From: a virus
Reading direction: 5' to 3' (one strand)
Length of the DNA stretch: 49,203 nucleotides
Virus record (IMG/VR): IMGVR_UViG_3300025162_000010
Location: 1-49,203 of that record
This document shows, in pieces, positions 24,408-44,508 of the stretch. Position 1 is the stretch's first letter. Every line of letters begins with the position of its first letter. The translations under genes were made by a program, and so were the position numbers. The notes below the pieces were generated by a model that saw only the letters and a program-made list of their open reading frames with translations, was not told the origin of the DNA and did not search any database.

Positions 24408-25793
24408 TTACAATTTCTTGTAGTATAAAATCTCTTTACCTACTAGCTGGGGGTCTGGATGGAACACTTCTTCTATCTGATTTACTAGCTTGAGGAATTC
24501 CAAAGCTTCGTCGAACTGTGCCCTATTGACGCCTAGCTTATGGACCACAATCATCAAGTCCACATACGTCTGTTCCTTCCCTTGTAGCATCTCTAGTATC
24601 TTTTGGCTTGCCTTACTCTCAGGAGACTTCCCTTCCAATATCAATGCTAAGTGCATGTTGGGCTTTTCTTTAGCTATAATTGCTATTGCTTTCTGAAAGG
24701 TCTCAATAGTAATTTCATTAGCTGGCGCACCTTTGTCATCTTGCTCAGCATCTTCAGAGAAATGAAGAGCCATTGCTAACTTCATCACATGGATATTCAT
24801 GCGAGCGTCATAGGGAACCATCTCTGGATGCTTGTTCTTAGGCATCTCTACTTTACAATAATTGTCCCACCACGCTGACATCCAATCAGCAGTGGCTTGA
24901 GACATCTTGACAGGCCCGTATAACATAGTCAACTTCTTTATGTGTTGGACCAACACTTCTTTATGCTCCTGTTGTTCTTTAGTTAGTGGCGGAAGCCACA
25001 TAGCGTTCTTTCTATTCTTCGGAGCATAGATATAGTGAGTTCTGCTAGAGAAGCCTTCACCAATTAAGTCTTCTGAAAAGGTGGTTTGCATAAACGATGG
25101 TGTAGTACCAGCTATGATATTAAGGCAACCTCTTCTTATTCTATCACGCCCTCTAGTAATAGAAACATACTCGTGGTCTATTGGACAATCATAAATTGAT
25201 AGCAAAAAGTTATTTGTATTCTGTGTATTCTTTTTCATCAATGAACTAAGCTCCGGCAACACAAAGCATAGGCTAGAATGACCGTATGCTTTAATCTTAT
25301 TAACACCATCTTTATCAGTCTCTATGTGATTGATATATCTAAATGCTTCGCCTAGCGCCTTAATAAGAGCTTCACACGTTATGCTATCTGCACAAACCGG
25401 GATTAAGAGTGGTTTGATTGTATTCTTAGGACCCTTGCTTGTGCCTTGAAATTCAGTTGAAGAAGCGTGTTTTATATTCTCCGACACGGAGGCTTCTATA
25501 ACAGACTGGTTCTCTGGGGTCTTGGCTAAATTCTCATTGCCTTTGGTCATGTCTAAAGTCCAGTGTTTAAGTAAGTTGCAAACTTCTTTTAACACAAGCC
25601 CTTTACCAACCCCAGGCGGACCACAGAGTATAACATACATATTGGGATAGCAAGGTTGATGAACAGGGCCTAACCACACTCGTCTTTGGAGGGAGGCAGC
25701 TATCGTGTAATACCATGACCATCTGACAAAGTTATCAGGTGACGGAAGCCCATCAGTGCAGGCCAGCCAACGGTCATGATTAGTCATATCCAT
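24408..25793 (-). CDS. P-loop ATPase, primase/helicase-like (DUF3987-type)
   Basis: This 461-residue protein is a probable replicative ATPase. The Walker A is CGPPGVGKG (residues about 57-65), an acidic motif sits in LCFVLPELSSL, and a downstream strand has NIIAGTTPSF (sensor-like) followed by GEGFSSRTHYIY. This arrangement resembles DUF3987/D5-type helicases fused or linked to primases in phages and plasmids. No separate primase zinc finger is seen. The last gene of the replication operon, it overlaps the polymerase gene by 10 nt. The helicase role is inferred, and no HNH or primase catalytic motif is visible. Confidence 0.65.
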   Translation of the reverse strand: MDMTNHDRWLACTDGLPSPDNFVRWSWYYTIAASLQRRVWLGPVHQPCYPNMYVILCGPPGVGKGLVLKEVCNLLKHWTLDMTKGNENLAKTPENQSVIEASVSENIKHASSTEFQGTSKGPKNTIKPLLIPVCADSITCEALIKALGEAFRYINHIETDKDGVNKIKAYGHSSLCFVLPELSSLMKKNTQNTNNFLLSIYDCPIDHEYVSITRGRDRIRRGCLNIIAGTTPSFMQTTFSEDLIGEGFSSRTHYIYAPKNRKNAMWLPPLTKEQQEHKEVLVQHIKKLTMLYGPVKMSQATADWMSAWWDNYCKVEMPKNKHPEMVPYDARMNIHVMKLAMALHFSEDAEQDDKGAPANEITIETFQKAIAIIAKEKPNMHLALILEGKSPESKASQKILEMLQGKEQTYVDLMIVVHKLGVNRAQFDEALEFLKLVNQIEEVFHPDPQLVGKEILYYKKL

Positions 25794-26896
25794 GTTAACT
25801 CCTGTAATCCTAATGGATTGGATTCTTTGACACTGTTCCAGTTAAAACCACAGTTTTGCTCTGACCTCATGTGAAACACCGTTCCATCATTTGGTGATAC
25901 AAGCTCTTGATTCATATGTTTTTTCATTCTATCTCTAGCATCTTTTACAAAGGTTAAAGGGCATTGAAGCATGTAACTATCATGCGTATCTGCTAACAAA
26001 TCATAAGGCAAGCTTTCTCTTTCTACATCAGCTTGCAAGCCAACTGTAGCCCTTCTAGTTATCTCAGCAACCGTAGAGGCAGGAGACCAAGCGTAATAGT
26101 CTTTCATCCTAGAATCTATGTTGAAATCTGTTACCTGAAATGGGTGGCCAAAGAGATTGAATAACATTCTAGTCTTAAGAACTTGGTTCTCCACTCTCCT
26201 ACAACGCTCTGGTATTTCAGGGAAAAGTCCTCTATATGTCTGCAAGAACTCAGCAGCTTGTGCATCTGTGATGTATATCTTTCCCTCTGACTTGGTTAAG
26301 ATATTCATACGAAACGTATTCTTCTCAATACCATAGTTAGCACTATGACAAGTTTGCTTAGCTAAGTAATAGTAACGTTCTTCAGCAGACCAGTTATCAG
26401 AGGACTTGATTAAACGGTCTAAGTCTTTCCAAAAAGGATTCTTCTTTAAGTCAGAAATTTTAGTATCACATAGTTCGTCAATGTTAAAATCTTCTACCAG
26501 ACCGCCAGACTCTTTAAGTTTCTTGGTCCACACATTTTTGAACAACTTCAATGCTACATATACATGTGGCTTGACACCATTGATAAACAATTGTCTGTAA
26601 TCTAATGGGTCACATTCATAAGCCACTATCAAAGCATCGGCACCAGACTGGTCTGACTGGAGGAAGACTCTTAGACACACCAACTCCTGCTCCGTAAAGA
26701 ACACGGTCTCTCCTGTTTTTAACCACTCTGCGCACTTCTCACTTAAGGCTGGTGTGAAACCATCAGGCCTATAAATCTCTCTTAAATACTTTTCCCAATT
26801 CTGCATATTAGAACCCCAATAGCCTAATACTTTAGTTGACGAACGGCGGAATGTTTTCGTTCCACCGTTTTTATACATGCAAGAATTCCTATACAT
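25784..26896 (-). CDS. Family A DNA polymerase, polymerase (palm/fingers) half
   Basis: About 370 residues carry the three polymerase motifs. Near the start, TKTFRRSSTKVL followed by SNMQNW corresponds to the TGRLSS/NLQNIP region. Motif A is SDQSGADAL. Motif B (O-helix) is KQTCHSANYGI, with Lys and His at positions usually Arg and Lys, and Tyr at the position equivalent to E. coli Phe762. Motif C is THDSYM. I chose the ATG at 26896, which overlaps the exonuclease stop as ATGTATAG. A TTG six codons upstream keeps the same frame open to 26914. The exonuclease half lies immediately upstream in another frame. A +1 shift at the junction would join both halves into a normal polymerase, so the gene is split. 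Confidence 0.88.
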   Translation of the reverse strand: MYRNSCMYKNGGTKTFRRSSTKVLGYWGSNMQNWEKYLREIYRPDGFTPALSEKCAEWLKTGETVFFTEQELVCLRVFLQSDQSGADALIVAYECDPLDYRQLFINGVKPHVYVALKLFKNVWTKKLKESGGLVEDFNIDELCDTKISDLKKNPFWKDLDRLIKSSDNWSAEERYYYLAKQTCHSANYGIEKNTFRMNILTKSEGKIYITDAQAAEFLQTYRGLFPEIPERCRRVENQVLKTRMLFNLFGHPFQVTDFNIDSRMKDYYAWSPASTVAEITRRATVGLQADVERESLPYDLLADTHDSYMLQCPLTFVKDARDRMKKHMNQELVSPNDGTVFHMRSEQNCGFNWNSVKESNPLGLQELTWI

Positions 26897-28493
26897 AAAG
26901 ATTAGTTTGTTCAACTACAGGCTTGTGCAATGTGCCATCTGGATTCTTCCAGGGAATAAACTTCAAAGAAGAGGTCTCTTTTTGCACCTTCCTATAGTGT
27001 AGAATCAACGGAATCACAGCATTGTCTGGATGCTTCATAGCTAACCTATACATGATATTCTTTCCAAGAGAAGGAAGCCCTGTATCTGGCGAACGGAAAA
27101 GAACTGAGTATTCAAGCATATCGTGGAAGTAAGCACACGCTTGTTTATTGCCACCAGTGAAAGCGCCTTTGAATGACTTTATGTAAGTCTTCATTTCGGA
27201 CACGCCAACCTCGCCTACTAACAATCCCATCATCCTAATATACTGCATCATCAACTTGTCATTCTCATTTGTAATCTTATCTTTAGCTTTGTCGTCATAA
27301 GCTATTCCTTGTAATGACATCAATAGATAAGGAACTATGCTATCATTGGCAAGCTTAATAGATGCCTCAAGACCGGGGATTGTTTTGGCATACTTATCTA
27401 TTGCCTCCTTGATTAAGAACATAGTATACACATCTTTAGCACAATACCTCAGCTTCTGCGTCATGTGTTCCCGCGTTATGTATCCTTGACTATCTGTGTC
27501 TTTGTGGAACCTTTCCCATGTCCATAAAGAAGTGCAGTGACCCAATGACTTTTCGACACAAGGGAAGCACCGATGCTGAGCCAACATAGTATCGTAGCAC
27601 TTATACACAGGTATATGATACTTTGATGCCAAGACGAAGAAGTCAAAACAAGCTCCATTGTGAGCCACAATAGTATTATCCCTGATAGCAATAGCCAACG
27701 CTCGAAGAATACGATGGTAATTACTATAAGCAGGGCGATAATTATTATCGAGAATAGGCACACTATAAATATTATGCCCGTCAAAAGAGAATGCAAAGCA
27801 AAGTAGATTTTGTTCTTCATAATCTGTTTCCATGTCGAAATAAAAGAACCTTCCTTTATTAGAAGTTAGTACATTTACTACATCTTCTGCCATTGGGTAA
27901 AGTAGGTAGGTAGGTACATTCTCACATAAGTGTTCCACTCTTGTTGGGTCTTTATCTTTGGACAATAATCTTTTAATTTTGGATACGTCTGCCTTAATCC
28001 AGAAAAAGTAATTGGAACGTTTAGTTGGAGAGAAGGCCTTAACGTCACCTTCATCCTCACTATCTTCTGATAATTCATCACCACCACTATACTCTTTAGA
28101 AAGCTCATTATGGGATTGTTCATAGTTCTTAAAGTCTGCTGCATCTTGTGGGAAGAAAGTTGCAATGGCTGGTATCTCTCCCACATATAAGAGACTGCCC
28201 CTCATTTCATTTAGTGTGTTCTTCCTAGTATCAGGACACCATTGGTGCATAGCTGCTTGACCTAACAACAGTATGCACTTTGTTCCTTCAAGCCAGGGTG
28301 AAGTATCCTCCATCACTCTCACGTCACACAACATACTATTTAACTCTGGCTGTAAGCAATCATTAAATAGCGTGCCGCCATTGGCAGAGAGCAAATTACC
28401 AATGCCGGGCTTCCACTCTTTATCAAAGCGGGATGGGTTGCTCATGACTATTGTGAGCCCTGAGTATTTACCCTTGGGTTTGTTTCTTAACAT
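26889..28493 (-). CDS. 3'-5' exonuclease half of DNA polymerase with UDG-like N-terminus
   Basis: This 534-residue protein has residues 12-120 resembling a family-4 uracil-DNA glycosylase fold (TIVMSNPSRF, PGIGNLL, ILLLGQAAMHQW), but the terminal HPS-type motif reads FFPQ, so catalysis is doubtful. Residues 130-160 are an acidic linker. The proofreading exonuclease follows, with ExoI at YFDMETD (about 218-224), ExoII at VAHNGACFD (about 276-284) and ExoIII at YCAKDVYTM (about 350-358). The last 100 residues correspond to the start of the polymerase thumb (ILHYRKVQKETSS), and the frame then stops while the polymerase half continues in the next gene. Proofreading and replication are its likely jobs, acting as a two-subunit enzyme or by frameshift fusion. 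Confidence 0.85.
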   Translation of the reverse strand: MLRNKPKGKYSGLTIVMSNPSRFDKEWKPGIGNLLSANGGTLFNDCLQPELNSMLCDVRVMEDTSPWLEGTKCILLLGQAAMHQWCPDTRKNTLNEMRGSLLYVGEIPAIATFFPQDAADFKNYEQSHNELSKEYSGGDELSEDSEDEGDVKAFSPTKRSNYFFWIKADVSKIKRLLSKDKDPTRVEHLCENVPTYLLYPMAEDVVNVLTSNKGRFFYFDMETDYEEQNLLCFAFSFDGHNIYSVPILDNNYRPAYSNYHRILRALAIAIRDNTIVAHNGACFDFFVLASKYHIPVYKCYDTMLAQHRCFPCVEKSLGHCTSLWTWERFHKDTDSQGYITREHMTQKLRYCAKDVYTMFLIKEAIDKYAKTIPGLEASIKLANDSIVPYLLMSLQGIAYDDKAKDKITNENDKLMMQYIRMMGLLVGEVGVSEMKTYIKSFKGAFTGGNKQACAYFHDMLEYSVLFRSPDTGLPSLGKNIMYRLAMKHPDNAVIPLILHYRKVQKETSSLKFIPWKNPDGTLHKPVVEQTNLYV

Positions 28494-32671: not shown

Positions 32672-32966
32672 GCAACTCTCCTTCTTCATTCCCATAGATT
32701 TGTTCATTGACAAACTTAAGAGCAACGCCCATTGCAGCAGGCTCTAACTTGCAAGCCATCCTCAACAGCGTGTTGCTATCCTGTTGGCATAGGTGGATTC
32801 TTTTCCCGTCTAAATCAATAAAGGTCTTAGCTAAAAGACTATTACAAATCATACACTTTTGCTTTTGTTCAACAGGTGCGGCGGGAACTGGAGGCCAACT
32901 AGATGGATATTGAACGGGGTCCGCGTTTGCTAAACTAGATATTGAGTTTAATGTTTGGTCTATCAT
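32664..32966 (-). CDS. Zinc-ribbon protein, first gene of the replication operon
   Basis: This 100-residue protein has a CxxC pair (KCMICNSL, about residues 37-44) and a further Cys in HLCQQD (about 59), hinting at a zinc-binding module with one ligand replaced by His or Asp. The N-terminus is Pro/Ser/Val-rich. It follows a roughly 400-nt structured leader from the sigma-54-type promoter at 33378-33394, with no Shine-Dalgarno sequence before the ATG. Role unknown. Confidence 0.65.
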   Translation of the reverse strand: MIDQTLNSISSLANADPVQYPSSWPPVPAAPVEQKQKCMICNSLLAKTFIDLDGKRIHLCQQDSNTLLRMACKLEPAAMGVALKFVNEQIYGNEEGELHV

Positions 32967-33366
32967 ATGATTGATTATGGTTCTTTGTTAAATTGTCCCC
33001 TAGTCGAACGAGCACTTGCGCACTCATAACACCTCGTAAGGTATTGTTTTCTAACACTCGCTAGGTTCTAAGCTATCATTACTTTCAACGATAGCAGGAA
33101 GTCAGGTCACATATTATAGATGTTAGACCATTATCTATACTACACTCTTCACTGACTGGCGGGCGTGCCATCGAAGGCAGTCGCTGGCTTTATTGTCAGC
33201 AAGCTAATGTAGCCCATTCTCTCTTAGTGTCTAGTCCACAGATAGCATAAGCTCAAAGTGGAGTCTAGGAAATTATGTTACATTCTAAATCTTATATCGC
33301 GAGAGATAGTAACCTAGAGTCGCGTGTCAGCGCACAATGATAAACGATAATCATGTGCCACCAACA
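32967..33366 (-). ncRNA. Structured leader RNA of the replication operon
   Basis: The 400 nt between the predicted +1 (about 33367) and the first start codon hold no ORF. On the minus strand I can pair several hairpins by eye. GCACATGAT/ATCATTGTGC and a 7-bp TATAGAT/ATCTATA are two. A 9-bp GCTATCGTT/AATGATAGC has one mismatch. AATACCT/AGGTGTT closes a TACG loop, and GAGTGC/GTGCTC closes a GCAA loop. This density of stems and tetraloops suggests a folded RNA: a 5'-UTR regulator, or a separate ncRNA. A core segment (33214-33237) recurs in the noncoding region 43104-43646. Confidence 0.5.
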
Positions 33367-33377
33367 AAGTTTATTAT

Positions 33378-33394
33378 AGCATTTTTCATGCCAA
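33378..33394 (-). promoter_or_regulatory. Sigma-54-type promoter of the replication operon
   Basis: The minus strand reads TTGGCATGAAAAATGCT, followed by ATAATAAAC. GG and GC are separated by exactly 10 nt. Predicted +1 is near 33367. It lies 27 nt downstream of the sigma-54 activator gene. TGCTATAAT also fits an extended -10. Confidence 0.68.
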
Positions 33395-33433
33395 CTACCA
33401 GTTAAGTATAACTCCTAACACTAACTGATAGTT
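33393..33433. repeat. Inverted repeat upstream of the replication promoter
   Basis: AACTACCAGTTA (33393-33404) and TAACTGATAGTT (33422-33433) are complementary at 11 of 12 positions, 17 nt apart. Each arm is itself a small palindrome (AACT-N3-AGTT). The near arm abuts the -24 element and the far arm overlaps the end of the activator gene. It could be an operator or enhancer-like site, or the end hairpin of the activator mRNA. Confidence 0.55.
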
Positions 33434-34305
33434 CCCCATACGTTGTGTCTGATAACATAAGTCTGGATAGACCTTACATTATACCTCAAGTCAAGCAGCC
33501 CTTTCTCTAACTCATATCCATACTTCTCCAAGAACTTATCCCCGCCTGGTAATGATTGACATATCGGCACTACATCACACAGTCGGCTCTTCAATGGATT
33601 GATAGTGAGTTCAAGAGGATAGATGCGAGCATAAAGGTCCTCACGAAACGAGCCCCCCTTTACCATCGTCTCAAGGTTGCGGTTAGTTGCAAAGACAAAC
33701 TTACAATTGATTGATTCATCTTTGATGGAGCCTACTTTACATACCGTCTTTTCTTGCAGGGTCCTTAGCAACTTAGCTTGCATTAGAATCGGAAGCTCAC
33801 CTATCTCATCTAAGAACATTACACCATCGGTTGCCTCGGCTATGAAGCCAGCCTTATCAACATACGCACCAGTGAATGAACCTTTGACATGACCAAAGAG
33901 AATTGACTCAATCAACTGCTCTGGTATGCCCGCACAATTGATAGCTCTGAAAGCACCGGTCCTAGCAGCTATCATCGACTTGGCTATAATCTCCTTACCA
34001 GTGCCGGTAGCACCAGAGATAAGAACTTCATAGGGAGTAACAGCAGCTTTCTTGGCGCGCTCTTTCATGGCTAGAGTCTTTTCATCTACCGTAATAAATT
34101 TAGATAGATGTAACTCACCTGGGTTAAGAGTGTCCTCAAGAGTCCATTTACCATCCGCTTGTTTAACTACGCGATATGGTAACTTGGTTGATTCTATTCT
34201 TCCTATTACTACATCTACAAAGTCTTCACCATTAGCTAGCATCAACTCTAATGCTCTACGTGTAATGGGACGACCTTCTTGTTGTGGTTGTGATTGTGGT
34301 ACCAT
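33421..34305 (-). CDS. Sigma-54 activator: AAA+ domain protein without HTH
   Basis: This 294-residue protein has all the marks of a sigma-54 enhancer-binding-protein AAA+ domain: Walker A GATGTGKE (98-105); the sigma-54 contact loop GSFTGA (142-147; canonical GAFTGA) after FGHVK; Walker B VMFLDEIGELP with D166-E167; sensor I FVFATNRN (203-210); arginine-finger block FREDLYARI (220-228); and a sensor II helix NVRSI (276-280, canonical NVREL). Residues 1-80 are not a receiver or known sensor domain. The protein ends just after sensor II, so the Fis-type HTH is missing. Known HTH-less activators (Helicobacter FlgR, Chlamydia CtcC) work from solution, and I infer the same here. It probably hydrolyses ATP to remodel host sigma-54 RNA polymerase at the phage's TGGCAY-N5-WTGC sites. 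It is the last gene of the 39.8-33.4 kb unit. Confidence 0.9.
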   Translation of the reverse strand: MVPQSQPQQEGRPITRRALELMLANGEDFVDVVIGRIESTKLPYRVVKQADGKWTLEDTLNPGELHLSKFITVDEKTLAMKERAKKAAVTPYEVLISGATGTGKEIIAKSMIAARTGAFRAINCAGIPEQLIESILFGHVKGSFTGAYVDKAGFIAEATDGVMFLDEIGELPILMQAKLLRTLQEKTVCKVGSIKDESINCKFVFATNRNLETMVKGGSFREDLYARIYPLELTINPLKSRLCDVVPICQSLPGGDKFLEKYGYELEKGLLDLRYNVRSIQTYVIRHNVWGTIS

Positions 34306-34307
34306 AT

Positions 34308-34628
34308 TTATCTCTTCTTCGCTTTGAATATTTTCTTACACCAAGCATCCCATAAACTAATAGCCTTCTCTCCACTGTATGTTAAGCTACGGTTAGCTTG
34401 TAATTGAAACCTAACATATGGTTCCCATCTATCCAATAGCTTGTGCGTCCTAGCATATTCACCCATAGTCATGCTTCTTAACACATGCATCTCTTCTGGA
34501 TTAAATTCATGTGCATGAACAGTGGGTCTCTTAGGTAATAGGTTGACAACCTCACCGTATTGATTCTTGTAATAGAATCTAGCGTATTGACACTTGTTCA
34601 AATCAATTACTATTCTATTGTCTTTCAC
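34308..34628 (-). CDS. Small protein of unknown function before the activator
   Basis: This protein has 106 residues from a GTG at 34628 that overlaps the preceding stop (GTGA) and is preceded by GGGGAGG. A longer GTG start at 34655 is possible but lies deeper in the upstream gene. It is basic and rich in Arg, Lys, Tyr and Trp (RWEPYVRFQL, SLWDAWCKKIF), so nucleic-acid binding is plausible. It is 2 nt from the activator gene, so the two are co-translated and could cooperate. Not recognised. Confidence 0.6.
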   Translation of the reverse strand: MKDNRIVIDLNKCQYARFYYKNQYGEVVNLLPKRPTVHAHEFNPEEMHVLRSMTMGEYARTHKLLDRWEPYVRFQLQANRSLTYSGEKAISLWDAWCKKIFKAKKR

Positions 34629-34804
34629 TCTTCCACCTCCCCATATCCTGCACACCTAGGACATTGTTCAGGCCCGTTTTCATTTTGCAAACTTCCATCG
34701 CCATCACACTCAGGACACATCACCATCTCTGGTATCCTTTCCTTGACAGGCATCCTATTATCATATTCAGCCTGCGCTCTATTGAAACTAGCATCTCCAC
34801 TCAT
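34625..34804 (-). CDS. DnaJ-type zinc-ribbon small protein
   Basis: A 59-codon frame runs from ATG 34804, overlapping the ligase stop (ATGA). Residues 29-55 carry CPECDGDGS, then CPRCAGYGE, two CxxCxGxG-like motifs of the DnaJ cysteine-rich type that would bind one zinc. It is coupled at both ends. Function is unknown; such ribbons often mediate protein contacts. Confidence 0.65.
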   Translation of the reverse strand: MSGDASFNRAQAEYDNRMPVKERIPEMVMCPECDGDGSLQNENGPEQCPRCAGYGEVEE

Positions 34805-35727
34805 AGTTCTACCTCATTCCTTTTGCCTATAAACACAGGGCTTCTTGGTTTCGTTTTGACACCATGACCCTTTGACTTATAGACTATTGTTTTGTTTAAC
34901 CACTCTTCTCTCCTATCCCAAATCTCTGCACGCTTCTTATCCGTCAAGCCCACACCCGTTCCTATCCTGCCTTCAAGCCCATTCTTATAGCGAACAACAA
35001 ATGCACCAAGCACTCCCTTACCGACCATGCCTTCTTGACAAGAAGAGCGTTTGGTCAACCCTACGAAATCCGTTTTACTTGCGTTAGTGTTTAACAACTG
35101 TTCCTCGAAGCCAATGATAACAGCCTCATCGCGGGTGAAGCGAGCTAGCTTAATTAAGTATTGTTCTTTCAGCGTTGACCTGCCTTGCTTGTATGGAGAG
35201 TCTGGTACCCTAAAACATATGCCTTCACCTTCAACCTCTTCTACACGCTTAAAGGCATTGAACAATTGCAAAGCATTTCCACAATGGAAATAAAAAGGAA
35301 GTTCCACGCAGAGATTAGGTAACTTGCACATAACAGCTTCTTCAATAAGAAAGAGCCTGTTGACATAACTATAATTGTTTCCTTGCCACCAATCTAATAC
35401 ATGAAACTGTATCTTGTCTTGGTCTTGATGAACCTTGCTCATCACAATAGATTCTATTTGGTCATAGGGCAAGTCAGGATTCCACAGCTCCATGTCCAAT
35501 CCATAAGGCAACCATTCAGCCCTTTTAGAGATGCTGATGTTAGGTATCTTTTTCAAGGTTCTGCTGGCTAAGTCACCTAGCTTAATAGCCCGTATCCCAT
35601 CCTTCTTAAGCGTTACAATTACGGGATATCTTAACCCTTTCATCTTCTCAAGAATGACTTCATCTGTATGAGGTTCATCTGGTTTAAGTAAACTGCAAGC
35701 TAACATTGGTCTATTGAATGTGTTCAT
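34801..35727 (-). CDS. ATP-dependent DNA ligase
   Basis: This 308-residue protein has nucleotidyltransferase motif I LKKDGIRA (about 40-47, adenylated Lys41 in K-x-DG), motif III GLDMELW (about 76-82), motif IV EGICFRV (about 168-174) and motif V YLIKLAR (about 189-195). The C-terminal 100 residues form an OB-type domain (GVLGAFVVRY, GRIGTG). The length matches small T7-type ligases. It seals nicks during replication and recombination. Confidence 0.85.
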   Translation of the reverse strand: MNTFNRPMLACSLLKPDEPHTDEVILEKMKGLRYPVIVTLKKDGIRAIKLGDLASRTLKKIPNISISKRAEWLPYGLDMELWNPDLPYDQIESIVMSKVHQDQDKIQFHVLDWWQGNNYSYVNRLFLIEEAVMCKLPNLCVELPFYFHCGNALQLFNAFKRVEEVEGEGICFRVPDSPYKQGRSTLKEQYLIKLARFTRDEAVIIGFEEQLLNTNASKTDFVGLTKRSSCQEGMVGKGVLGAFVVRYKNGLEGRIGTGVGLTDKKRAEIWDRREEWLNKTIVYKSKGHGVKTKPRSPVFIGKRNEVEL

Positions 35728-35792
35728 ATTAGTGTGCGGCGATGTAGTTTTGGTGTAGTCACAGTTTTCATGCGGGTTTAGATATTCTACTG

Positions 35793-36128
35793 TTAGGCTT
35801 TATCCGAGCGTCCATAGGTTGCGTATCGCGCAAAGGCGATTCCGATTTCGCGTTCACGGTCTGTCAGTTCGCCGAGACTTTCGCGGAGCTTGCCTTTCGC
35901 CACCGAGTCGAATGACTGCGAGGCGAGTTCGGCGTTTCGTTCGTTGATATACGCGAGGTCTAGCAGCCGAGCGGCAGCGTTGTATTCGGTAGACGCCGCT
36001 TTCGTGGCGATTTGCATGTGCATGTAGTGCGGGAAGCGATTGAGATTGGTGTCTATAGAGCATGTAAGGTCTACCGTTTGCTTGTGCGTCTTACTAGACA
36101 TATCATTGTCAGTTAGTTTATCTTTCAT
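35793..36128 (-). CDS. Small G+C-rich accessory gene
   Basis: This 111-residue helical protein is rich in Arg, Ala and Glu with no known motif. Codon use (GCG, CGC, GAG, TCG) is clearly G+C-richer than the flanking helicase and ligase genes, so it was probably inserted recently. A 65-nt noncoding gap separates it from the ligase. The start ATG follows the helicase stop by 5 nt. The first 20 residues are polar (KTHKQTVDLT) and the remaining 90 are helical. Confidence 0.6.
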   Translation of the reverse strand: MKDKLTDNDMSSKTHKQTVDLTCSIDTNLNRFPHYMHMQIATKAASTEYNAAARLLDLAYINERNAELASQSFDSVAKGKLRESLGELTDREREIGIAFARYATYGRSDKA

Positions 36129-36133
36129 ATTAT

Positions 36134-38356
36134 TTAATCCTCGTTTTCTTCACCTACCAACCCTGTATCTTCACCAGGTTTATCCTCAAGCAAAGTATCT
36201 TCGTATTGTTTAAGCTCATCAACTGAGCCCCTCACCACCAAGTCAGACCATGACTCTTTATGCTTGACAATCTTACTCAAGCATCGTAGACCTTTGCCTG
36301 CAATGTCAGCCACCCTACCCTCGATTGTGCCTCGATAATAGATAAGATGTTGCTTTGTAACTGACAAAGATGTTAAGCGCGGGGCACGACCTACACCTTG
36401 CACCAGTTCGATTGGCGACCATGTAGGTGTAACAAATACTTCCCTTGGACGAGTAGGCACAAGTGGTATATCTTCCTCTACCACGTATCCAGACTCTTTC
36501 CTTCTACACTTAAATTTAGTTTGTTCATCTGTATGATGAAGCGAGAGACCAACACCACCGGCCTTTAGAGTGTATATGCAGTATAGTGTTTCCCCTCTTT
36601 GGAACTTATCAATCTCTCTAGTTCTTTCTTCCAAGCTCTGCATACCTAGTCGCAAGTGTTCAGGTATCTCCATAAGAACCCTATCCTCTACCTTATCTAG
36701 GTCCAAGTTCTCAAGCAACTCTTCCTGTGTTACCCCTTGTTCTTCTAGTTGCCTTGCGCTAAGAGACAATATCTTTGCTCTCGCCTTCTGCTTATCAGTC
36801 AGTTGTGTTTGCCCGCCACCCCATATGATTGATATTTGGTCTCTCTTTACACCTCTCTTCTCAAGTTCCATGACCATTGCAATGATTGTTGCCTTGAATG
36901 ACAGGGCACAAACAGCGGCATTGCCTTGCTCAACACTATCCATCATTCTACCTACTAGATAATTACTACGACAATACTCTGCTGCCATTCGGAACTTTAA
37001 GAACTGAACTAATAAAGCCATGCCAACAGGCATCCCGCCAAGACCTAGTGTCTCAAGTCTAGCTTTCTCTGCTAGATATCTTTCCCATGCTTGATGGTAA
37101 TAGTCAGCCTCTTCTTTGTTTTGAAACTCAATCATCTGGATGTTATTCTCTGCCTCGAATTGAGGCCTAACACCCTTGACTCGAACCACATATTCTTCTA
37201 AGTCAGCCATCAACCTTTCAACCGCTGCCTCATTATATTCATCTGGCGGATTGGGATATGCAATAGCCTCAGCATACGCTGGCCAAGTCTCATTGGTTAA
37301 GACAGCCCCTTGCGGAAACCCAGACCTCTTACCACAGATATATTCTAATGATTTGTGTGTGCTAACAGCCCAACACTTGGCTTCAATGACTCGTGTAAAT
37401 GGTGTAGCACTGATGAAGATTTGCTTAGGCTGCTTATCCTTCATATCATTAAGCGCACACGCTATGTTATGTTGTAAGCTGCCTTTGTTTTTAAGGGCTT
37501 GACACTCATCCCACATCAATATAGCAGGCTGAACGTTCCTCTTCCATGTCCACCTCTCTTCTTCCTCTCCAGCAACAATAACTACCTCACGCTTTAGCCA
37601 GAACTTACCAGATGAAGAGCGCAGTTGTTCAATGTTAATGACAGACGTGTCCTCTATGCCCATATTAAAGTCTCGCTCTAACACCCGTTCGGTTTGTGCT
37701 ACTACCGATGCGCGTGTTACATATAGATATGGTATGTGAGACATCGTTCTACCTATATGATATTCTTTGTCTGCAAACCTTCTCAATAATCCACCCGCCA
37801 TCCATGTCTTACCGGTGCCAGTGCCGGATAAGATTAATACTGACGGACGGTCTTCTACCATTAGCTTATGCCATCCTTCTACTACGGCTTTCTTTTGAAA
37901 CCAGAACAGAGAGGCTTGCTCATTGGATGACTTGACGAAGCCATAGTTGTCTTCAGCAGTCAGCTCTTTCTTAGGAGCTTTCTTTTGCTCGGTCTCTTCT
38001 TGTTTGAAAATATCTTGTTCAACCCTATCAAGGGCTTCGTTGACAAAGTCTTTAGCCTTATCAGTTGGAGCAGATGCCGCTGTTGGTGTTCCTTGGTTGT
38101 CATTTATATCTTTCTCAAGTTGGTCTCTTTGCTTAGAAAGAAATTCTTTTAACTCAGCAAATACTGCAGAGCCTTTCTTTAATTCTGGATGCTGTGTTAA
38201 GTATTCTCTTCCATAACCTAGCTTAGAGTAGACACCTTCCCATGTCTTTATCTCACCGAAGTTCCATGCTGATAGAACTTGATTGTGAGCCATGATAAGC
38301 TGGTCTCTTAGACGCTTATTCGCTTTCTGTTGTGGTGTTAATGGTAGCTTGGGCAT
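36134..38356 (-). CDS. SF2 DEAD/DEAH-type helicase
   Basis: This 740-residue protein has motif I SGTGTGKT (177-184), motif II DECQ (283-286), motif III SATPF (about 315-319) and motif VI VQGVGRAPR (in the C-terminal third). The N-terminal 140 residues are helical and Gln/Lys/Glu-rich, with no DNA-binding signature. The C-terminal lobe is interrupted by a long coiled-coil-like insert (residues 410-580). It resembles phage Snf2/strawberry-notch-like helicases used in recombination or replication restart. It precedes the G+C-rich gene and the ligase in the same orientation. Confidence 0.82.
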   Translation of the reverse strand: MPKLPLTPQQKANKRLRDQLIMAHNQVLSAWNFGEIKTWEGVYSKLGYGREYLTQHPELKKGSAVFAELKEFLSKQRDQLEKDINDNQGTPTAASAPTDKAKDFVNEALDRVEQDIFKQEETEQKKAPKKELTAEDNYGFVKSSNEQASLFWFQKKAVVEGWHKLMVEDRPSVLILSGTGTGKTWMAGGLLRRFADKEYHIGRTMSHIPYLYVTRASVVAQTERVLERDFNMGIEDTSVINIEQLRSSSGKFWLKREVVIVAGEEEERWTWKRNVQPAILMWDECQALKNKGSLQHNIACALNDMKDKQPKQIFISATPFTRVIEAKCWAVSTHKSLEYICGKRSGFPQGAVLTNETWPAYAEAIAYPNPPDEYNEAAVERLMADLEEYVVRVKGVRPQFEAENNIQMIEFQNKEEADYYHQAWERYLAEKARLETLGLGGMPVGMALLVQFLKFRMAAEYCRSNYLVGRMMDSVEQGNAAVCALSFKATIIAMVMELEKRGVKRDQISIIWGGGQTQLTDKQKARAKILSLSARQLEEQGVTQEELLENLDLDKVEDRVLMEIPEHLRLGMQSLEERTREIDKFQRGETLYCIYTLKAGGVGLSLHHTDEQTKFKCRRKESGYVVEEDIPLVPTRPREVFVTPTWSPIELVQGVGRAPRLTSLSVTKQHLIYYRGTIEGRVADIAGKGLRCLSKIVKHKESWSDLVVRGSVDELKQYEDTLLEDKPGEDTGLVGEENED

Positions 38357-38359
38357 AAA

Positions 38360-38806
38360 TTATCTTAATTCCTCTTCTTTTGTTACAAGTTTCTTAACGC
38401 CTATCGCCCTTATGCTACCAAACTTGCCTAGACTTACTAGATGACATGCTTGCGTCTTGGCCCTATCCTCATCATAAGAGTATTCCATTACTAGATGTCT
38501 GGCAACTATCTTAATGTTGGCTTCTTGTATGAATCTCTTCACACGTTCCTTATGTGACCATGCTTTCTGTCTCTTGTAATTGGCTAATGAATCATGCCAA
38601 TCACGATAATACCACAAGATTGGATACACAAGCGGAGAACCTTCATGGTCTTCAAATTGAACTTTGAAGAGCGTCTCATCTTTTACCATCTCTTGAACTA
38701 TTAAACCTAGCTCATAGTTAGGCAGCTCTCTGCAATGTCGTGCTCCCAACGTCAGTTCAATAAAGGTGGCAAAGTGTAGAGTGATTGTGTTGTTATGCTT
38801 TGACAT
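38360..38806 (-). CDS. Protein of unknown function before helicase
   Basis: This 148-residue alpha/beta protein is rich in His, Tyr and Trp (WYYRDWHDSL, KAWSHKERVKRF). The start overlaps the upstream basic protein by 14 nt and the stop lies 3 nt from the helicase start. There is some resemblance to small nuclease or NTPase accessory proteins, but no motif is clear. Confidence 0.6.
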   Translation of the reverse strand: MSKHNNTITLHFATFIELTLGARHCRELPNYELGLIVQEMVKDETLFKVQFEDHEGSPLVYPILWYYRDWHDSLANYKRQKAWSHKERVKRFIQEANIKIVARHLVMEYSYDEDRAKTQACHLVSLGKFGSIRAIGVKKLVTKEEELR

Positions 38807-38945
38807 AAGGCAGATTCCTCTCGACTTTTATACTCTTCCTAACCATTCTTTTTCTCTTGCCTAAGCCCAGCTTGAGTTCACGGTTCACTTTACAGGCTTC
38901 TGCAAGACGAGACTTCCGTTGTTTTAATGTGGTTCGTTTGTTCAT
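38793..38945 (-). CDS. Very basic 50-residue protein
   Basis: From ATG 38945 the frame encodes 50 residues, nearly 30% Lys/Arg (TLKQRKSRLAEA, LGKRKRMVRKS). The longer frame (to 38978) would start inside the upstream hairpin and is less likely. It is probably nucleic-acid binding: a transcription or antitermination factor, or a nucleoid protein, given that two hairpins lie just upstream. Confidence 0.55.
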   Translation of the reverse strand: MNKRTTLKQRKSRLAEACKVNRELKLGLGKRKRMVRKSIKVERNLPYVKA

Positions 38946-38969
38946 AATGTTGTGGTTGTAACAGCTAAA

Positions 38970-39024
38970 GAGAGCCATCTTATTGATAGCTCTCGTTAAA
39001 TGGGCATACTATAAGCGGTATGCC
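38970..39024 (-). terminator. Two hairpins after the 39,046 gene (terminator/attenuator)
   Basis: The second hairpin met by transcription, GAGAGC/GCTCTC (38970-38975 with 38989-38994, plus 3 more pairs), is followed on the minus strand by TTT. The first, GGCATAC/GTATGCC (39003-39009 with 39018-39024), has 7 bp. They separate the first gene of the unit from the helicase, ligase and activator genes, and would reduce read-through. Confidence 0.55.
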
Positions 39025-39045
39025 AGCGCCTTAATAAGCTACCTC

Positions 39046-39606
39046 TTAGGCAACTTTTTCTTTGTTCGCCATACGCTTGGCAGCAATCGCAGCATACTTC
39101 GTTTCAATCTCACGAATAGCGCGCTTAAGACGACCAAGCTTACGGTTATTTTCCATCAACTGAGTGTTGATTTCCAGCCAACGCACAGGATTAACTTTCG
39201 TCCCGTCTTCGTTCTCTTCAAAGTCCGGGTCATCCATCAACGCATTGCTGAGGTCAATCAACTCATCCCGTTCGGCAGCCAATTCAGCCTTGTTTGCACC
39301 ACCAGTGTCCAATGACTGGAAGCCTGACAGGATATTATCCCAAATGATGTGGCCCTCCGCATCATAATTGTCAGTCTTATTGCTGAACAGGTCAAGCGCC
39401 ACCTTGCGCAGGTAACGAGTCAACACACTGTTGACAATTTCAGCACCAATGAACTTACGCACAGCATCTTCATTAGATGCCGTAGCCTCCAGCGTCCAGA
39501 AAGGCTGCCCTTTCAAGTCACTTGTCTTACCAAACACGGTAAGAGACAACGGGAGTTTCGTATCATTGCGCGTTACAACTGGCGGGTTTTCTTTAGTATA
39601 GTTCAT
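39046..39606 (-). CDS. Protein of unknown function, first gene of the 39.8-kb unit
   Basis: This 186-residue protein has a beta-rich N-terminal half (residues 15-60, SLTVFGKTSDLKGQPFWTLEA) and a helical C-terminal half of coiled-coil type (about 105-186) ending in a basic tail. It is the first sizeable gene after the sigma-54-type promoter at 39819-39835 and is followed by two hairpins, so it may be made in more copies than the genes beyond. Codon use is slightly G+C-richer than its neighbours. Not recognised. Confidence 0.65.
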   Translation of the reverse strand: MNYTKENPPVVTRNDTKLPLSLTVFGKTSDLKGQPFWTLEATASNEDAVRKFIGAEIVNSVLTRYLRKVALDLFSNKTDNYDAEGHIIWDNILSGFQSLDTGGANKAELAAERDELIDLSNALMDDPDFEENEDGTKVNPVRWLEINTQLMENNRKLGRLKRAIREIETKYAAIAAKRMANKEKVA

Positions 39607-39721
39607 GCTGTTTCTTTCTTGTTTCTAACTGATTGCCCTATGCTTTTATATGCCGACAATCGTGTTGCATATTCCCATTAGCTCGCGAGCTTTCTGCTTT
39701 ACTATGCTAACGGTAAATTGT

Positions 39722-39778
39722 TTATCTTTTCTGACAGTGGAAGTAAATGAGAACGCAGATTATTATTACTGTGAACAT
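39722..39778 (-). CDS. Possible 18-residue hydrophobic peptide
   Basis: ATG 39778 opens an 18-codon frame, MFTVIIICVLIYFHCQKR, which looks like one membrane helix with a basic tail. It starts 30 nt after the predicted +1. It could be a leader peptide or a membrane microprotein. Coding is unproven. Confidence 0.3.
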   Translation of the reverse strand: MFTVIIICVLIYFHCQKR

Positions 39779-39818
39779 GGTTGTGATTCTTTCTTTTCTC
39801 GACTGACAGTGTGCTTAT

Positions 39819-39835
39819 AGCAATTTCTATGCCAC
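39819..39835 (-). promoter_or_regulatory. Sigma-54-type promoter of the helicase/ligase/activator unit
   Basis: The minus strand reads GTGGCATAGAAATTGCT, followed by ATAAGC. GG-N10-GC spacing is exact, and predicted +1 is near 39808. The activator gene itself is the last gene of this direction of transcription. Confidence 0.66.
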
Positions 39836-39861
39836 GTTATATTAACGTGTGTTTATCTGCC

Positions 39862-40134
39862 TTAAAGATGTAGTATCCTAACCATGTTTATCTTCCAATT
39901 TACATTGCCTTGTTTGTCTGCGCTTGGAGGACAATATCTATCTGCTAAGAAATAGATGAAGTTCTTATCTACGTGGTGAAATTTGTAATCTTTTAGTGCA
40001 TGATTAATGGTATTGATGCATGCTTGTCTGGGTGTTGTTACCTTGTAATGCTGCATGATACCATACGGGCGGCTTGTGTTTGTTCCACCTTCTACTCGAT
40101 ATATGGCATCAGCCACTTGGTCTATTGTTATCAT
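39862..40134 (-). CDS. Small lysozyme/transglycosylase-like protein
   Basis: This 90-residue protein resembles small phage transglycosylase-like proteins: AIYRVEGGTN with a candidate catalytic Glu at about residue 15, then PYGIMQHYKV, a helical middle, FIYFLADRYCPP and NWKINMV at the end. It is the only cell-wall-hydrolase-like gene I can find, and it is not in the late operon. The likely role is peptidoglycan degradation in lysis or release. It ends the paralog operon; no signal peptide is seen, so export would need a holin. Confidence 0.45.
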   Translation of the reverse strand: MITIDQVADAIYRVEGGTNTSRPYGIMQHYKVTTPRQACINTINHALKDYKFHHVDKNFIYFLADRYCPPSADKQGNVNWKINMVRILHL

Positions 40135-40695
40135 TTAATTGAATGGATTGGCAACTAATTCACGAATTTTGTCAGCTTGCCACCTTTGCTCTTCTGCTTT
40201 TTTAGCATCACGATTAGCATTAGCAGCACCAGCATAGGTAGTAGCAGTAGCAGCATAGGTAGTAGCAGTAGCAGCAGCACTAGCAGCAGCAGTATAAGCA
40301 GCAGCATAGGCAGCAGCACTAGCAGCAGTAGCAGCATTAGTAGCAGCATAAGCAGCAGCACTAGCAGCAGCAGCAGCATAAGCAGCAGCAGCAAGTTTGT
40401 TCTTTCCCGTCGGATTTTTTATCCAATCTAATGCTGCTTCAATTGCTAATCGTGGCCTCTTATCGTTTGGATATTTATTTTCAAAAATTGGGATAACATG
40501 CTCTGCACAGACGACGGCTATTTTAACTGCGCTTACTTTGTTCAGATGATTACTGTTATAAAGTAACCATATTAGCCAATCACCACGTTCACAAAGGTCA
40601 TAGATTCTCTTAAAATCAAAATCATGTTTTTCTGCAAAGAGTCTGCCGTTGTTGCATGGGCCATTTTCAAGGAACGCTTCTTTTGTGTATTTCAT
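40135..40695 (-). CDS. Imm-5-like alanine-rich paralog 1
   Basis: This 186-residue protein is one of four tandem paralogs. Conserved blocks are MKYTKE, then a Cys-Gly/Asn segment (PCNNGRLFAEKHDFD), then RGDWLIWLL, then PRLAIEAALDWIKNP, a long Ala-rich repeat (about residues 100-160, units of AAAYAAA with Ser and Thr) and the end IRELVANPFN. This matches my recollection of the Imm-5 putative-immunity family found in phages and polymorphic-toxin loci. The alanine block is encoded by GCA/GCT runs that appear as AGCAGC on the plus strand. Function in a phage is unknown; host-defence or toxin neutralisation is a guess. It is translated after paralog 2, 6 nt downstream. Confidence 0.65.
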   Translation of the reverse strand: MKYTKEAFLENGPCNNGRLFAEKHDFDFKRIYDLCERGDWLIWLLYNSNHLNKVSAVKIAVVCAEHVIPIFENKYPNDKRPRLAIEAALDWIKNPTGKNKLAAAAYAAAAASAAAYAATNAATAASAAAYAAAYTAAASAAATATTYAATATTYAGAANANRDAKKAEEQRWQADKIRELVANPFN

Positions 40696-40701
40696 ATTAG
40701 T

Positions 40702-41313
40702 TTAGTTAAATGGATTAGGGATTGTTTCTCTAATCTTATTGGAAAGATTTATCAAGATTTCTTCGTGAGCATCCTCAGTAACGTGCCTGACGATAGCGAA
40801 AGAAGCGGCAAGAATAGCCCCAGTAGCACAAATGGTACAAACTTCCTCCTTAAGGAGGAAGTAAGCCTCAGCAGCTCTAGCGGTGTGAATAATAGTATAA
40901 GTAGCATAATCAGTAGCAGTAGTAGTATCATGCCAGGGAACGCGAAGGAGATTGCGCGCAGCAATTCTATACTGAGTTCGGATATAATTGAGAATAAAAA
41001 TATTACGTTTTAAGCTCTCTGGTGTTATCTCGAAAGATAGCATCTGCTCTGCGAGTTCTACAATCTTCTTAGGGATTGTGTCACCTATCTTGTGCTTGTC
41101 AAAAATAGGCAGAACTTGTTTTGCAAAAATAATAGATAATATTAAAGCTTCTTTTAGCTTCATATTACCACTTTTCTCCAAAAGCCAAGCTAGATGGCAT
41201 GGAACATTATACTCATCATAAATCTTCTTAAAGTCAAAATTCATTGACTCCGCATATGCTAAGCCTGCAGAGCAAGGCTTATGTGCCAGGAGTTGTTCTT
41301 TTGTGTATTTCAT
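40702..41313 (-). CDS. Imm-5-like paralog 2 (divergent)
   Basis: This 203-residue protein has the same plan (MKYTKEQLL, PCSAGLAYAESMNFDFKKIYDE, CHLAWLLEKSGNM, end RETIPNPFN), but the DWLIWLL motif is altered and the alanine-rich block is reduced and replaced by mixed helices. It groups with paralog 4 by its KPC-SGLAYAE start. Divergence suggests functional separation, not a recent duplication. Confidence 0.65.
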   Translation of the reverse strand: MKYTKEQLLAHKPCSAGLAYAESMNFDFKKIYDEYNVPCHLAWLLEKSGNMKLKEALILSIIFAKQVLPIFDKHKIGDTIPKKIVELAEQMLSFEITPESLKRNIFILNYIRTQYRIAARNLLRVPWHDTTTATDYATYTIIHTARAAEAYFLLKEEVCTICATGAILAASFAIVRHVTEDAHEEILINLSNKIRETIPNPFN

Positions 41314-41340
41314 TTCATTTTAGTTTAGTTAGTTGTTAAT

Positions 41341-41964
41341 CTAGTCAAATGGATTGGGGACTATTTCTCTAATTTTGTCAGCTTGCCACCTTTGCTCTTC
41401 TATCATTTTAGTAGCAGCATCAGCAACAGAAGCATCAGCAACAGAAGCAGCAACAGCATTAATAGCAGTAACAATAGCAACATAAGTAGCATGAGCACTA
41501 GCAGCATTAGTATAAGCATTAGTATTAGCAGCACCAACAGCAGCATAAGAAGCAGCATAAGCAACATCAACAGCAGCATCAGCAGCACCAGCATAGTTAG
41601 TAGCAGCAATATAAGCACCAACAGCAGCAATTTTAGCATGAGCAGCAGCAGCACTAGCAGCAATAGCATTCTTTTTCGTCGGATTTTTTATCCAATATGA
41701 TGCAGCTTTAATCGCTAATCGCGGTCTTTTGTCGTTTGGATAATCATTCTCGAAGATTATGAGAACACGCTTTGTGCAGGCGACTGCTATCTTGACCGCG
41801 TTCATTTTATCTATACGATTACTGACACGAAGTAACCACATTAACCAGTCACCACGTTCACAGAGGTCATAGATTCTATGACAGTTGAAGTCATGTTTTC
41901 CCGCAAAAAGCAGGCCTTCGGGACACGGTTTATTAATAAGCAACTCTTTTTTTGTGTATTTCAT
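41341..41964 (-). CDS. Imm-5-like alanine-rich paralog 3
   Basis: This 207-residue protein is the closest relative of paralog 1 (RIYDLCERGDWLMWLL, YPNDKRPRLAIKAASYWIKNPTKK). It has a long Ala-rich repeat (about residues 100-180, with Tyr, Asn, Val and Thr inserted) and the end IREIVPNPFD. The repeat differs in detail from paralog 1, so expansion is independent or decaying. Confidence 0.66.
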   Translation of the reverse strand: MKYTKKELLINKPCPEGLLFAGKHDFNCHRIYDLCERGDWLMWLLRVSNRIDKMNAVKIAVACTKRVLIIFENDYPNDKRPRLAIKAASYWIKNPTKKNAIAASAAAAHAKIAAVGAYIAATNYAGAADAAVDVAYAASYAAVGAANTNAYTNAASAHATYVAIVTAINAVAASVADASVADAATKMIEEQRWQADKIREIVPNPFD

Positions 41965-41974
41965 TTTAGTTTAG

Positions 41975-42010
41975 TTTAGTTGTTAATTTAGTTGTTAATT
42001 TAGTTGTTAA
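41975..42010. repeat. 12-bp tandem repeat between paralogs
   Basis: Three perfect units of TTTAGTTGTTAA plus a partial fourth lie between paralogs 4 and 3. Shorter TTTAG-type repeats occur in the other intergenic gaps of the cluster. It contains no ORF and is probably a duplication scar or spacer. Confidence 0.8.
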
Positions 42011-42011
42011 T

Positions 42012-42674
42012 TTAGTTAAATGGATTGGGGACTGTTTCTCTAATGAGATTCGAGAGCCTTATTGTAGCTTTTTTACGAGCAGCATTATTCGCAATCGAAG
42101 CGTCACAAATATCAAAGGTGTCATACTCGGCCTCGATAGTCTCAATAGCATAAACAGAACTGGTGTAAACAGCAGCATAAACCACTTTATTAGCGTAGAC
42201 AGTGTTTTTACAAGTAATGGCATTAATAGCGGTAATAGCAGCGTTTGCTACAGTTAAGGTAGCCTTAAGAGCAGCAAGAGTGTGCACAGAATAACTAAGA
42301 TAAGCATTGTCAGCAATGTCGTTAGTAATAGCATAAGCAGCAGCACAAACATCAGCGGTATGAACCTCTCTTGATTCTACTAATACCGGGCTAGAAAATA
42401 ACAATTGTTCAATTTGTTCTATAACTTTTCTAGGAGACATGTCACTTGGCTTATGCTTTTCATAAATAGGCAGAACCTCTTTTGCAAAAGAAAGTGATAT
42501 AACTGCTGCTTGTCTTGGCGTCATGTTACCGCTTTTATGTAGAAGCCAAATTAAATAAGAGGCTTGATTGCACTTATCATAAATCTTCTTAAAATCAAAA
42601 CACATATATTCTGCATATGCTAAGCCTGAAAGACAAGGCTTATGCATCAACATTTCTTCTTTTGTGTATTTCAT
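42012..42674 (-). CDS. Imm-5-like paralog 4
   Basis: This 220-residue protein has the same head (MKYTKEEMLMHKPCLSGLAYAE), an ASYLIWLLHKSGNM segment, a middle with moderate Ala/Thr content and the end RETVPNPFN. It is the first of the four to be transcribed. It lacks the pure Ala run of paralogs 1 and 3. Confidence 0.66.
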   Translation of the reverse strand: MKYTKEEMLMHKPCLSGLAYAEYMCFDFKKIYDKCNQASYLIWLLHKSGNMTPRQAAVISLSFAKEVLPIYEKHKPSDMSPRKVIEQIEQLLFSSPVLVESREVHTADVCAAAYAITNDIADNAYLSYSVHTLAALKATLTVANAAITAINAITCKNTVYANKVVYAAVYTSSVYAIETIEAEYDTFDICDASIANNAARKKATIRLSNLIRETVPNPFN

Positions 42675-43041: not shown

Positions 43042-43086
43042 AAGTTAATCGGAGTTTATTTGTTGTCATAGTCTTTTTCTTTTAAT

Positions 43087-43103
43087 AGCAAAAGCTATGC
43101 CAT
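43087..43103 (-). promoter_or_regulatory. Sigma-54-type promoter of the paralog operon
   Basis: The minus strand reads ATGGCATAGCTTTTGCT, followed by ATTAAA. GG-N10-GC spacing is exact; +1 is near 43076. The site forms one arm of an inverted repeat: 43087-43099 pairs with 43119-43131 at 12 of 13 positions. Confidence 0.62.
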
Positions 43104-43646
43104 CTAACTAATAGATAACATAGCTTATGCTACTTATACTTTCCAACTAGGGATAAACTGACAGTCAAAACCGCATAGAACTATCAGCAACATTTATGCC
43201 TAAACCTTATGCCCAAGCATACTCGTCAGCCCTTACTTTATATCGCTTTCGTGCCCTAGTGTATTCAAGAAGTTTCTTGTTCCGCAAACTGTTATCTTGA
43301 TAGTCTCCCTTATATGTGGGAAGTCAGTTACCAGTATCTTGTATTGCTACAATGTCCGGTGCAACTAATCAAGTTTGCTTCGCGCAAGATATTAACTGCC
43401 AGGGATGATGTTCCATGGACTTCATTACATAGCAGGGCCAATCTCTAAGAGCACGCATTCAATGGCTAAGTCTGGATAAGGCAAGGCAAGAATATATCGT
43501 TGCCTTGTTCGCTTAGTCTTTTAGACTATGGACAATGCCATTCTCTTAGTGTGTAAGTCCCTAGGCTTTGGCTACGGATTTTATTCACATAGTCTTATCG
43601 CCGTTTGGCTTAATCTACTGGGTGCTGTTTTATTGTATAAAATTGA
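43104..43646 (-). ncRNA. Long noncoding region, probably a structured RNA
   Basis: About 540 nt between the terminator at 43647-43687 and the promoter at 43087 contain no convincing ORF on either strand. On the minus strand I can pair AAGGCAA/TTGCCTT (7 bp), GACTATG/CATAGTC (7 bp, long range), TAGTCT/AGACTA, CAAGA/TCTTG and GCATA/TATGC. A core, on the plus strand CCATTCTCTTAGTGTGTAAG (43538-43557, extending to TCC at 43560), closely matches 33214-33237 of the replication-operon leader. The family is unknown; no promoter is obvious. Confidence 0.4.
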
Positions 43647-43687
43647 AACGCCCCGGAGAGCAATTAATGCTACATATCCGGGGCGTT
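43647..43687 (-). terminator. Terminator after the 43,703 gene
   Basis: A perfect 11-bp stem, AACGCCCCGGA (43647-43657) with TCCGGGGCGTT (43677-43687), has a 19-nt loop. On the minus strand it is followed by TCAATTTT, so it stops transcription after the 43,703-44,110 gene. It isolates that gene as a separate unit. Confidence 0.78.
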
Positions 43688-43702
43688 ATTGACCGCAAAC
43701 GA

Positions 43703-44110: not shown

Positions 44111-44491
44111 ATATGTTTATTCGTTTGTGCGTGTCAGGCTAAACATGTTGCTTAACCCGTCCCCTAGAGGGCCAGTTGCCCCTAGGAAAGTCTAGTTGCC
44201 AACTGATAATGCGACGGAGTTGATTACTAGCTCAGGGGCTAGTTGTCATTCGTTCCGCTACCGCTGCCGCTACCGCTTCAAAGAACTACCAAGAGACTAT
44301 AGCATCCTAGCTTGTTTGTCTACAACTATTTTCATTTATTTTGCATGGGTTAAGTGGTTGATTAACAGTGGATTATACATATGGATAAATTTAATGGTCA
44401 ATAGTCCACTGACACCTTTCGCCACTTCGTCATTTCGCCACGTAACGAAATGGCTTCCCGTCCCTTTATGGCACGTTATTGCTAAGGATGA

Positions 44492-44508
44492 AGCATGTCT
44501 TGTGCCAT
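44492..44508 (-). promoter_or_regulatory. Candidate sigma-54-type promoter toward the 43,703 gene
   Basis: The minus strand reads ATGGCACAAGACATGCT, with GG-N10-GC spacing and a TGGCAC -24 box, but TTCATC follows instead of ATAA. The predicted leader to the next gene is about 370 nt. It is weaker than the five main sites because it lacks the shared TGCTAT extension. Confidence 0.35.

Follow-up and report, generated by a model that had tools for sequence, protein, structure and literature searches.

Genome layout and the predicted activator

The stretch of DNA that was analysed, here called the window, is a 49,203-base virus record (IMGVR_UViG_3300025162_000010) with a 127-bp end repeat and a GC content of 42%. 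Its genes are organized in two divergent arms. The leftward arm contains genes for a helicase, ligase-like and exonuclease-like proteins, a DNA polymerase and a primase/helicase, and the rightward arm contains the terminase, portal, capsid (major capsid gene, 3562-4890) and virion genes. DNA polymerase A (25784-28493(-)) is apparently in two parts, one for the exonuclease (26889-28493) and one for the polymerase (25784-26914), and is split likewise in the closest relative, G001. Collagen-like NGTNGT repeat proteins are encoded 3' of the capsid gene (5819-9147(+)) and are possibly tail or receptor-binding fibres. At 40135-42674(-), adjoining the putative promoter of the leftward arm, are four tandem paralogous genes whose products start with MKYTKE, two of which contain alanine-rich repeats.

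The open reading frame at 33421-34305(-) has an ATG start and encodes a 294-aa protein. Pfam, sequence motifs, an AF2 model and fold matches all identify it as a putative sigma-54 activator, consisting of an AAA+ domain (PF00158) and an N-terminal segment of about 75 residues. The motifs named in the original prediction are all present exactly as described: GATGTGKE (Walker A), GSFTGA (L1 loop), MFLDEIGELP (Walker B), FREDLYARI (arginine finger) and NVRSI (sensor II). The match to Sigma54_activat (PF00158) has an E-value of 1.9e-53 and a score of 181 bits, against a cut-off of 20.2. The AF2 model has a pLDDT of 94.9 and its best fold matches are the AAA+ domains of FleQ, FlrC and NtrC1, with LuxO also matched; the nearest PDB sequences are likewise those of sigma-54 activators. 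The protein also matches phrog_7998 (E 1.8e-34), a family that is labelled function unknown and spans the AAA+ part only.

The protein had been described as a full activator. This holds for its AAA+ domain, which is complete; ordinary activators, however, also have a C-terminal Fis-type DNA-binding domain, and this protein has none. The AAA+ fold and motifs are shared with activators of the PspF/NtrC type; PspF and NtrC, however, bind enhancers and have an HTH at the C-terminus, whereas in the phage proteins no more than 84 residues follow the arginine-finger motif, too few for a DNA-binding domain in any member of the family. No HTH was found in the predicted structure of the window protein. 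Bacterial activators lacking a DNA-binding domain exist and are functional, namely FlgR, CtcC and FleT (PMC3162934; PMC7175178). FlgR of Helicobacter and CtcC of Chlamydia likewise have a PF00158 core with a GAFTGA loop and no HTH, and are expected to act on sigma-54 holoenzyme from solution, as is the phage protein; FleT of Rhodobacter also lacks a signal domain. The phage activator differs from FlgR and CtcC in being phage-encoded and vertically inherited in a phage lineage, in lacking a receiver domain, and in serving what are putatively phage promoters. The Walker A and B motifs, the L1 loop and the arginine finger are kept across the relatives: of 45 family members, 43 have GAFTGA or something close to it in the L1 loop, one of the remaining two being truncated, and all 45 have the arginine finger. 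In the G011 protein the loop is GAFTDA, with the G-to-D substitution that is also present in FlgR (PMC3162934). ATPase activity, sigma-54 binding and activation from solution may be expected of the predicted activator. In another relative, the activator frame (G061:37262-38005(-)) contains one in-frame TAG, which could be recoding, a frameshift error or a real stop.

About 75 uncultured relatives were compared. A search with the activator sequence alone returned one relative, and a search with an alignment returned 149, many on contigs of approximately 50 kb. Thirty-five genomes were read (the window and 34 relatives; 1.67 Mb), followed by 11 further contigs of deeper branches; the counts given below include the near-duplicate genomes G014/G025, G032/G033 and G008/G009. 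The relatives have capsid, portal, terminase, helicase, polymerase and primase in common and constitute one phage lineage. The activator of G001 is 63% identical to that of the window, and this genome has counterparts of the window sites described below at matching places. The viral collection contains 98 capsid relatives, and no capsid match to a cultured or named phage was found among 50,697 phage records. The nearest named matches of the terminase are from Akkermansia phages, at 26-30% identity, which is too weak to accept Akkermansia as the host. Searching bacterial genomes for a host returned only two MAG contigs, one of them labelled as a Methanoregulaceae archaeon. This contig is surely misbinned, since archaea are not known to have sigma-54, and Methanoregulaceae was rejected as a host. 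Most matches to the activator and to sigma-54 in the named phage collection are in draft 'phage' records and appear to be of bacterial origin. The human gut phage MT121960 (L011), which appears unrelated, encodes an AAA+ sigma-54-activator-like protein (19770-20684(+)) that is 34% identical and lacks an HTH. No -24/-12 sites were found in MT121960; therefore, the claim made here is not extended to it.

A search that started from the capsid and took no account of the activator yielded 30 contigs, of which 26 contain the activator and the four others are all fragments below 34 kb. Every examined relative of 35 kb or more encodes the activator. Relatives that keep the sites and lack an activator gene, which would have counted against the original prediction, were sought, and only fragments below 34 kb were without the activator; the proposed scan for co-occurrence found that the AAA+ gene and -24/-12 sites go together throughout the lineage. 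Divergence of the activator tracks that of six core genes (Mantel r 0.93, a value reached by none of 999 permutations). The activator is vertically co-inherited with the core phage genes. A T7-type single-subunit RNA polymerase (PF00940), the mark of Autographivirus-like phages with their own polymerase, is absent from 48 genomes in a search that detected the T7 positive control.

The -24/-12 sites in the window and in its relatives

As claimed, exactly five matches to TGGCAY-N5-WTGCTAT are present in the window, all of them noncoding. By chance 0.02 would be expected, five were reached in no shuffle, and the version of the pattern with an N4 spacer has no match. The original prediction had the sites in the right places with coordinates off by 1-2 bases. 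It also held that all five head transcription units, which is correct for two of them. The site at 43085-43102(-) (TGGCATAGCTTTTGCTAT) heads the leftward arm (genes from 42674 down to 24408) and has a counterpart in G001 (24293-). The site at 45044-45061(+) (TGGCATAGAAGATGCTAT) heads the rightward arm (terminase, portal and structural genes), with counterparts in G001 (26786+) and G003 (49766+). The other three, 3421(+), 39834(-) and 33393(-), are located between genes within long same-strand series. The first of these, 3421-3438(+) (TGGCACGATACTTGCTAT), is 5' of the major capsid gene; most relatives have a site in this position too, typically some 130-170 nt before the gene. The second, 39817-39834(-) (TGGCATAGAAATTGCTAT), precedes the gene 39046-39606 and the block containing the activator, and is syntenic in G001, G003 and G016. 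The third, 33376-33393(-) (TGGCATGAAAAATGCTAT), is 27 nt past the activator stop and 5' of a noncoding leader of about 400 nt and of replication genes; in 31 of 34 genomes there is a site no more than 900 nt past the activator, and in about half it is 24-62 nt past it.

Weaker candidates, defined by the pattern without the final TAT, number two in the window. One (44492-44507(-), TGGCACAAGACATGCT) is 5' of the gene 43703-44110 and has near-equivalents in G003 and G012 only. The other (16192-16207(+)) is inside the gene 16031-16390 and 5' of the gene 16387-17529. Its conservation is partly explained by conserved codons for GM(V/I)LA, and it may be a coding coincidence.

Across the 35 genomes, TGGCAY-N5-WTGCT has 168 matches, 140 of them in intergenic DNA, which makes up 18% of the total. 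With other spacers (k=0 to 12) there are 0-13 matches each, 0-3 of them intergenic. The intergenic sites are directed into a co-oriented gene in 135 of 140 cases and not in five, compared with a ratio of 1034:925 for random intergenic positions. It is position and orientation, not motif counts, that tell real sigma-54 promoters from look-alikes (PMC3162934). The sites recur 5' of the capsid gene, the terminase block and the replication block while the flanking DNA has diverged, and this recurrence holds in relatives with capsid identity down to about 30%. Only GG, GC and the bases close to them are fixed among the relatives; the spacer and the positions downstream vary in the manner of sigma-54 promoters. 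The reversed pattern occurs 0-1 times per genome. As a negative control, ten viral contigs (512 kb) with a PF00158 gene and without the family portal were searched and contained no sites. On comparative genomic grounds, the reading of the phage sites as sigma-54-type promoters paired with a phage-encoded activator is strongly supported: spacing, intergenic position, orientation, place, negative control and base pattern agree, the activator is present in every examined relative of 35 kb or more, T7-type RNA polymerase is absent, and a sub-branch described below encodes its own sigma-54.

Four deep members of the lineage (G026, G028, G046 and G047) have only 0-3 clear sites, and the deepest members seemed to be without them. 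Upstream of the capsid genes of the latter is TGGCATATCGTTAGCA, which still has GG-N10-GC and a changed -12 element. The corresponding pattern, [TA]GGCAY-N5-[AT]AGC[AT], has 32 matches in the deep set, 30 of them intergenic, with 0-7 matches at other spacers. A search for the sigma-54 DNA-binding domain (DBD) identified a gene in four deep members and four further contigs (eight relatives: G065, G068, G069, G070, G076, G078, G079 and G080), and the gene was counted in 18 contigs of one sub-branch. Examples are G065:43387-44676(+), G068:13905-15194(+), G069:35469-36764(-) and G070:24499-25788(-). The encoded proteins are 429-431 aa long where read out and 75-97% identical to the first. In the two that were scanned (G065 and G069), the AID, the core-binding domain (CBD) and the DBD are all above the Pfam cut-off, and the RpoN box ARRTIAKYRAEL is present in all four proteins read. 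The phage sigma-54 aligns to solved bacterial sigma-54 over nearly its full length and has no PHROG match. Its gene is surrounded by phage genes and lies two genes away from the helicase. The same genomes encode the activator as well, and end repeats are present in G065. In most cases a -24/-12 site of the [AT]AGC type is found 50-60 nt 5' of the sigma-54 gene itself. G073, a sister to the sigma-54 branch that also has end repeats, has [AT]AGC elements and no sigma-54 gene. Thus, the phage sigma-54 by itself does not account for the shift in the -12 element. The window itself has no sigma-54 gene.

A predicted sigma-54 switch and its alternatives

These observations make it very probable that the gene at 33421-34305(-) encodes a stripped-down phage activator which switches sigma-54 polymerase at phage -24/-12 promoters. 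The protein would be a hexamer-forming AAA+ ATPase, a reduced bacterial enhancer-binding protein that lacks a DNA-binding domain. Closed complexes of sigma-54 RNA polymerase are proposed to wait at the phage promoters; the activator would contact the polymerase from solution via the GAFTGA loop and remodel it by ATP hydrolysis. The replication arm would then be switched on via 43102-, 39834- and 33393-, and the packaging and structural arm via 45044+ and 3421+. Synthesis of the activator would be self-amplifying once started, because both 43102(-) and 39834(-) precede its gene in the leftward arm; the loop might be started by a host activator or by leaky read-through. This order of events, like the self-amplification, is a proposal. 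In most members sigma-54 and core polymerase would be derived from the host, with one sub-branch supplying its own sigma-54; host core polymerase is presumably used, given that no T7-type polymerase is found in 48 genomes.

The original prediction had most or all transcription of the phage routed through sigma-54, which is plausible from the layout. On balance it is likely that sigma-54 governs essentially the entire gene programme of an old, large uncultured lineage, that the on-switch is a diffusible activator encoded by the phage itself, and that one branch has become self-sufficient with its own sigma-54 and shifted -12 promoters, a shift also seen in a sister genome without a sigma-54 gene.

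How far this control extends is the point at which a narrower account deserves serious weight, at somewhat under an even chance: the sigma-54 sites may serve only a late or amplifying layer, with early and much other transcription starting from host sigma-70 promoters. Such an arrangement is compatible with the sigma-54 switch and limits its reach. The activator needs a start-up source, and a sigma-70-like promoter (TTGACC-18-TATAAT, 11 of 12) is present at 44372-44401(-), 5' of the gene 43703-44110, where it is possibly an early promoter. Sigma-70 promoter-like matches also exceed those in shuffled sequence in 32900-39900 (24 compared with 13.9). Against this narrower account, no conserved sigma-70-like site was found at an equivalent place in the relatives, and replication and structural genes alike have sites of the same -24/-12 class.

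The absence of a DNA-binding domain bears on a second alternative. Nothing visible aims the activator at phage over host promoters, so it should also wake host sigma-54 genes. Its main role could then be host takeover, with the phage sites depending on host activators. This is quite unlikely, as phage promoters would be unneeded for a host-only role, it is capsid, terminase and replication genes of the phage itself that have the sites in front of them, the activator and the sites occur together across the lineage, and a sub-branch adds its own sigma-54. Least probable of all, and largely refuted, is a reading of the sites as sigma-70 promoters of the extended -10 type (TGnTATAAT), with a conserved TTGGCA box bound by some phage factor and another function for the AAA+ protein: two of the five window sites do read TTGCTATAAT and ATGCTATAAT, but in relatives GG and GC are fixed at one spacing and are not followed by TATAAT (A 0.56 / T 0.37 at position 17, with almost random bases beyond it), and the deep branch changes TTGC to AAGC/TAGC with GG-N10-GC kept and contains a sigma-54 gene.

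Phage gene expression is known to be controlled by sigma-70 promoters, sigma-70-type phage sigma factors, co-activators and phage polymerases. SPO1 gp28 and T4 gp55 are the phages' own sigma factors, and T7 has its own RNA polymerase. In each case a phage-supplied factor redirects or activates polymerase at the phage's own promoters, as is proposed for the sigma-54 switch; unlike in SPO1, T4 and T7, the switch in the present lineage would be the ATP-dependent sigma-54 pathway. The described phage sigma factors are, to our knowledge, of the sigma-70 type, and we know of no described phage that is built on its own sigma-54 activator and promoters. A survey of phage sigma factors mentions sigma54 or RpoN nowhere (PMC9429907), and no description of a sigma-54-run phage or of a phage-encoded sigma-54 was found in the open-licence literature. 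The parts belong to known families, and what would be new is the use of the sigma-54/activator circuit by a phage as its gene switch. Such a lineage would add a different logic to phage gene control, namely silence until the activator is made, after which all arms can fire together. If true, this would account for tight silence followed by strong induction in a phage, and host range is predicted to depend on rpoN. The lineage, widespread as judged by its 98 capsid relatives, was previously without a functional label for transcription. It also offers natural minimal activators, and sigma-54 variants with putatively altered -12 preference, for mechanistic work.

Leader RNA and other noncoding elements

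A second long noncoding stretch of the window, at 43140-43650, follows the gene 43703-44110 and has conserved patches in G001, G003, G006 and G013. A strong hairpin is present near 43650-43690.

The noncoding leader downstream of the 33393(-) site occupies 32967-33375(-) and folds better than shuffled sequences (z about -3). RNAalifold on whole leaders gave nothing usable. Within the leader is a conserved two-hairpin RNA element (33046-33148(-)), consisting of a TATAGAT/ATCTATA stem and then a hairpin with a loop like TGAAAAGTAA, for which there is no Rfam match. Counterparts of the element are located at L012:14136-14238(-), L099:15554-15656(-), L104:19706-19808(-), L118:4416-4518(+) and L128:19440-19542(-). 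The loop of the second hairpin across these relatives is like TGAANAGTAA, and pairing is kept with differing stems, the hairpins' own stems forming 6.1 of 8 pairs and swapped stems 3.2.
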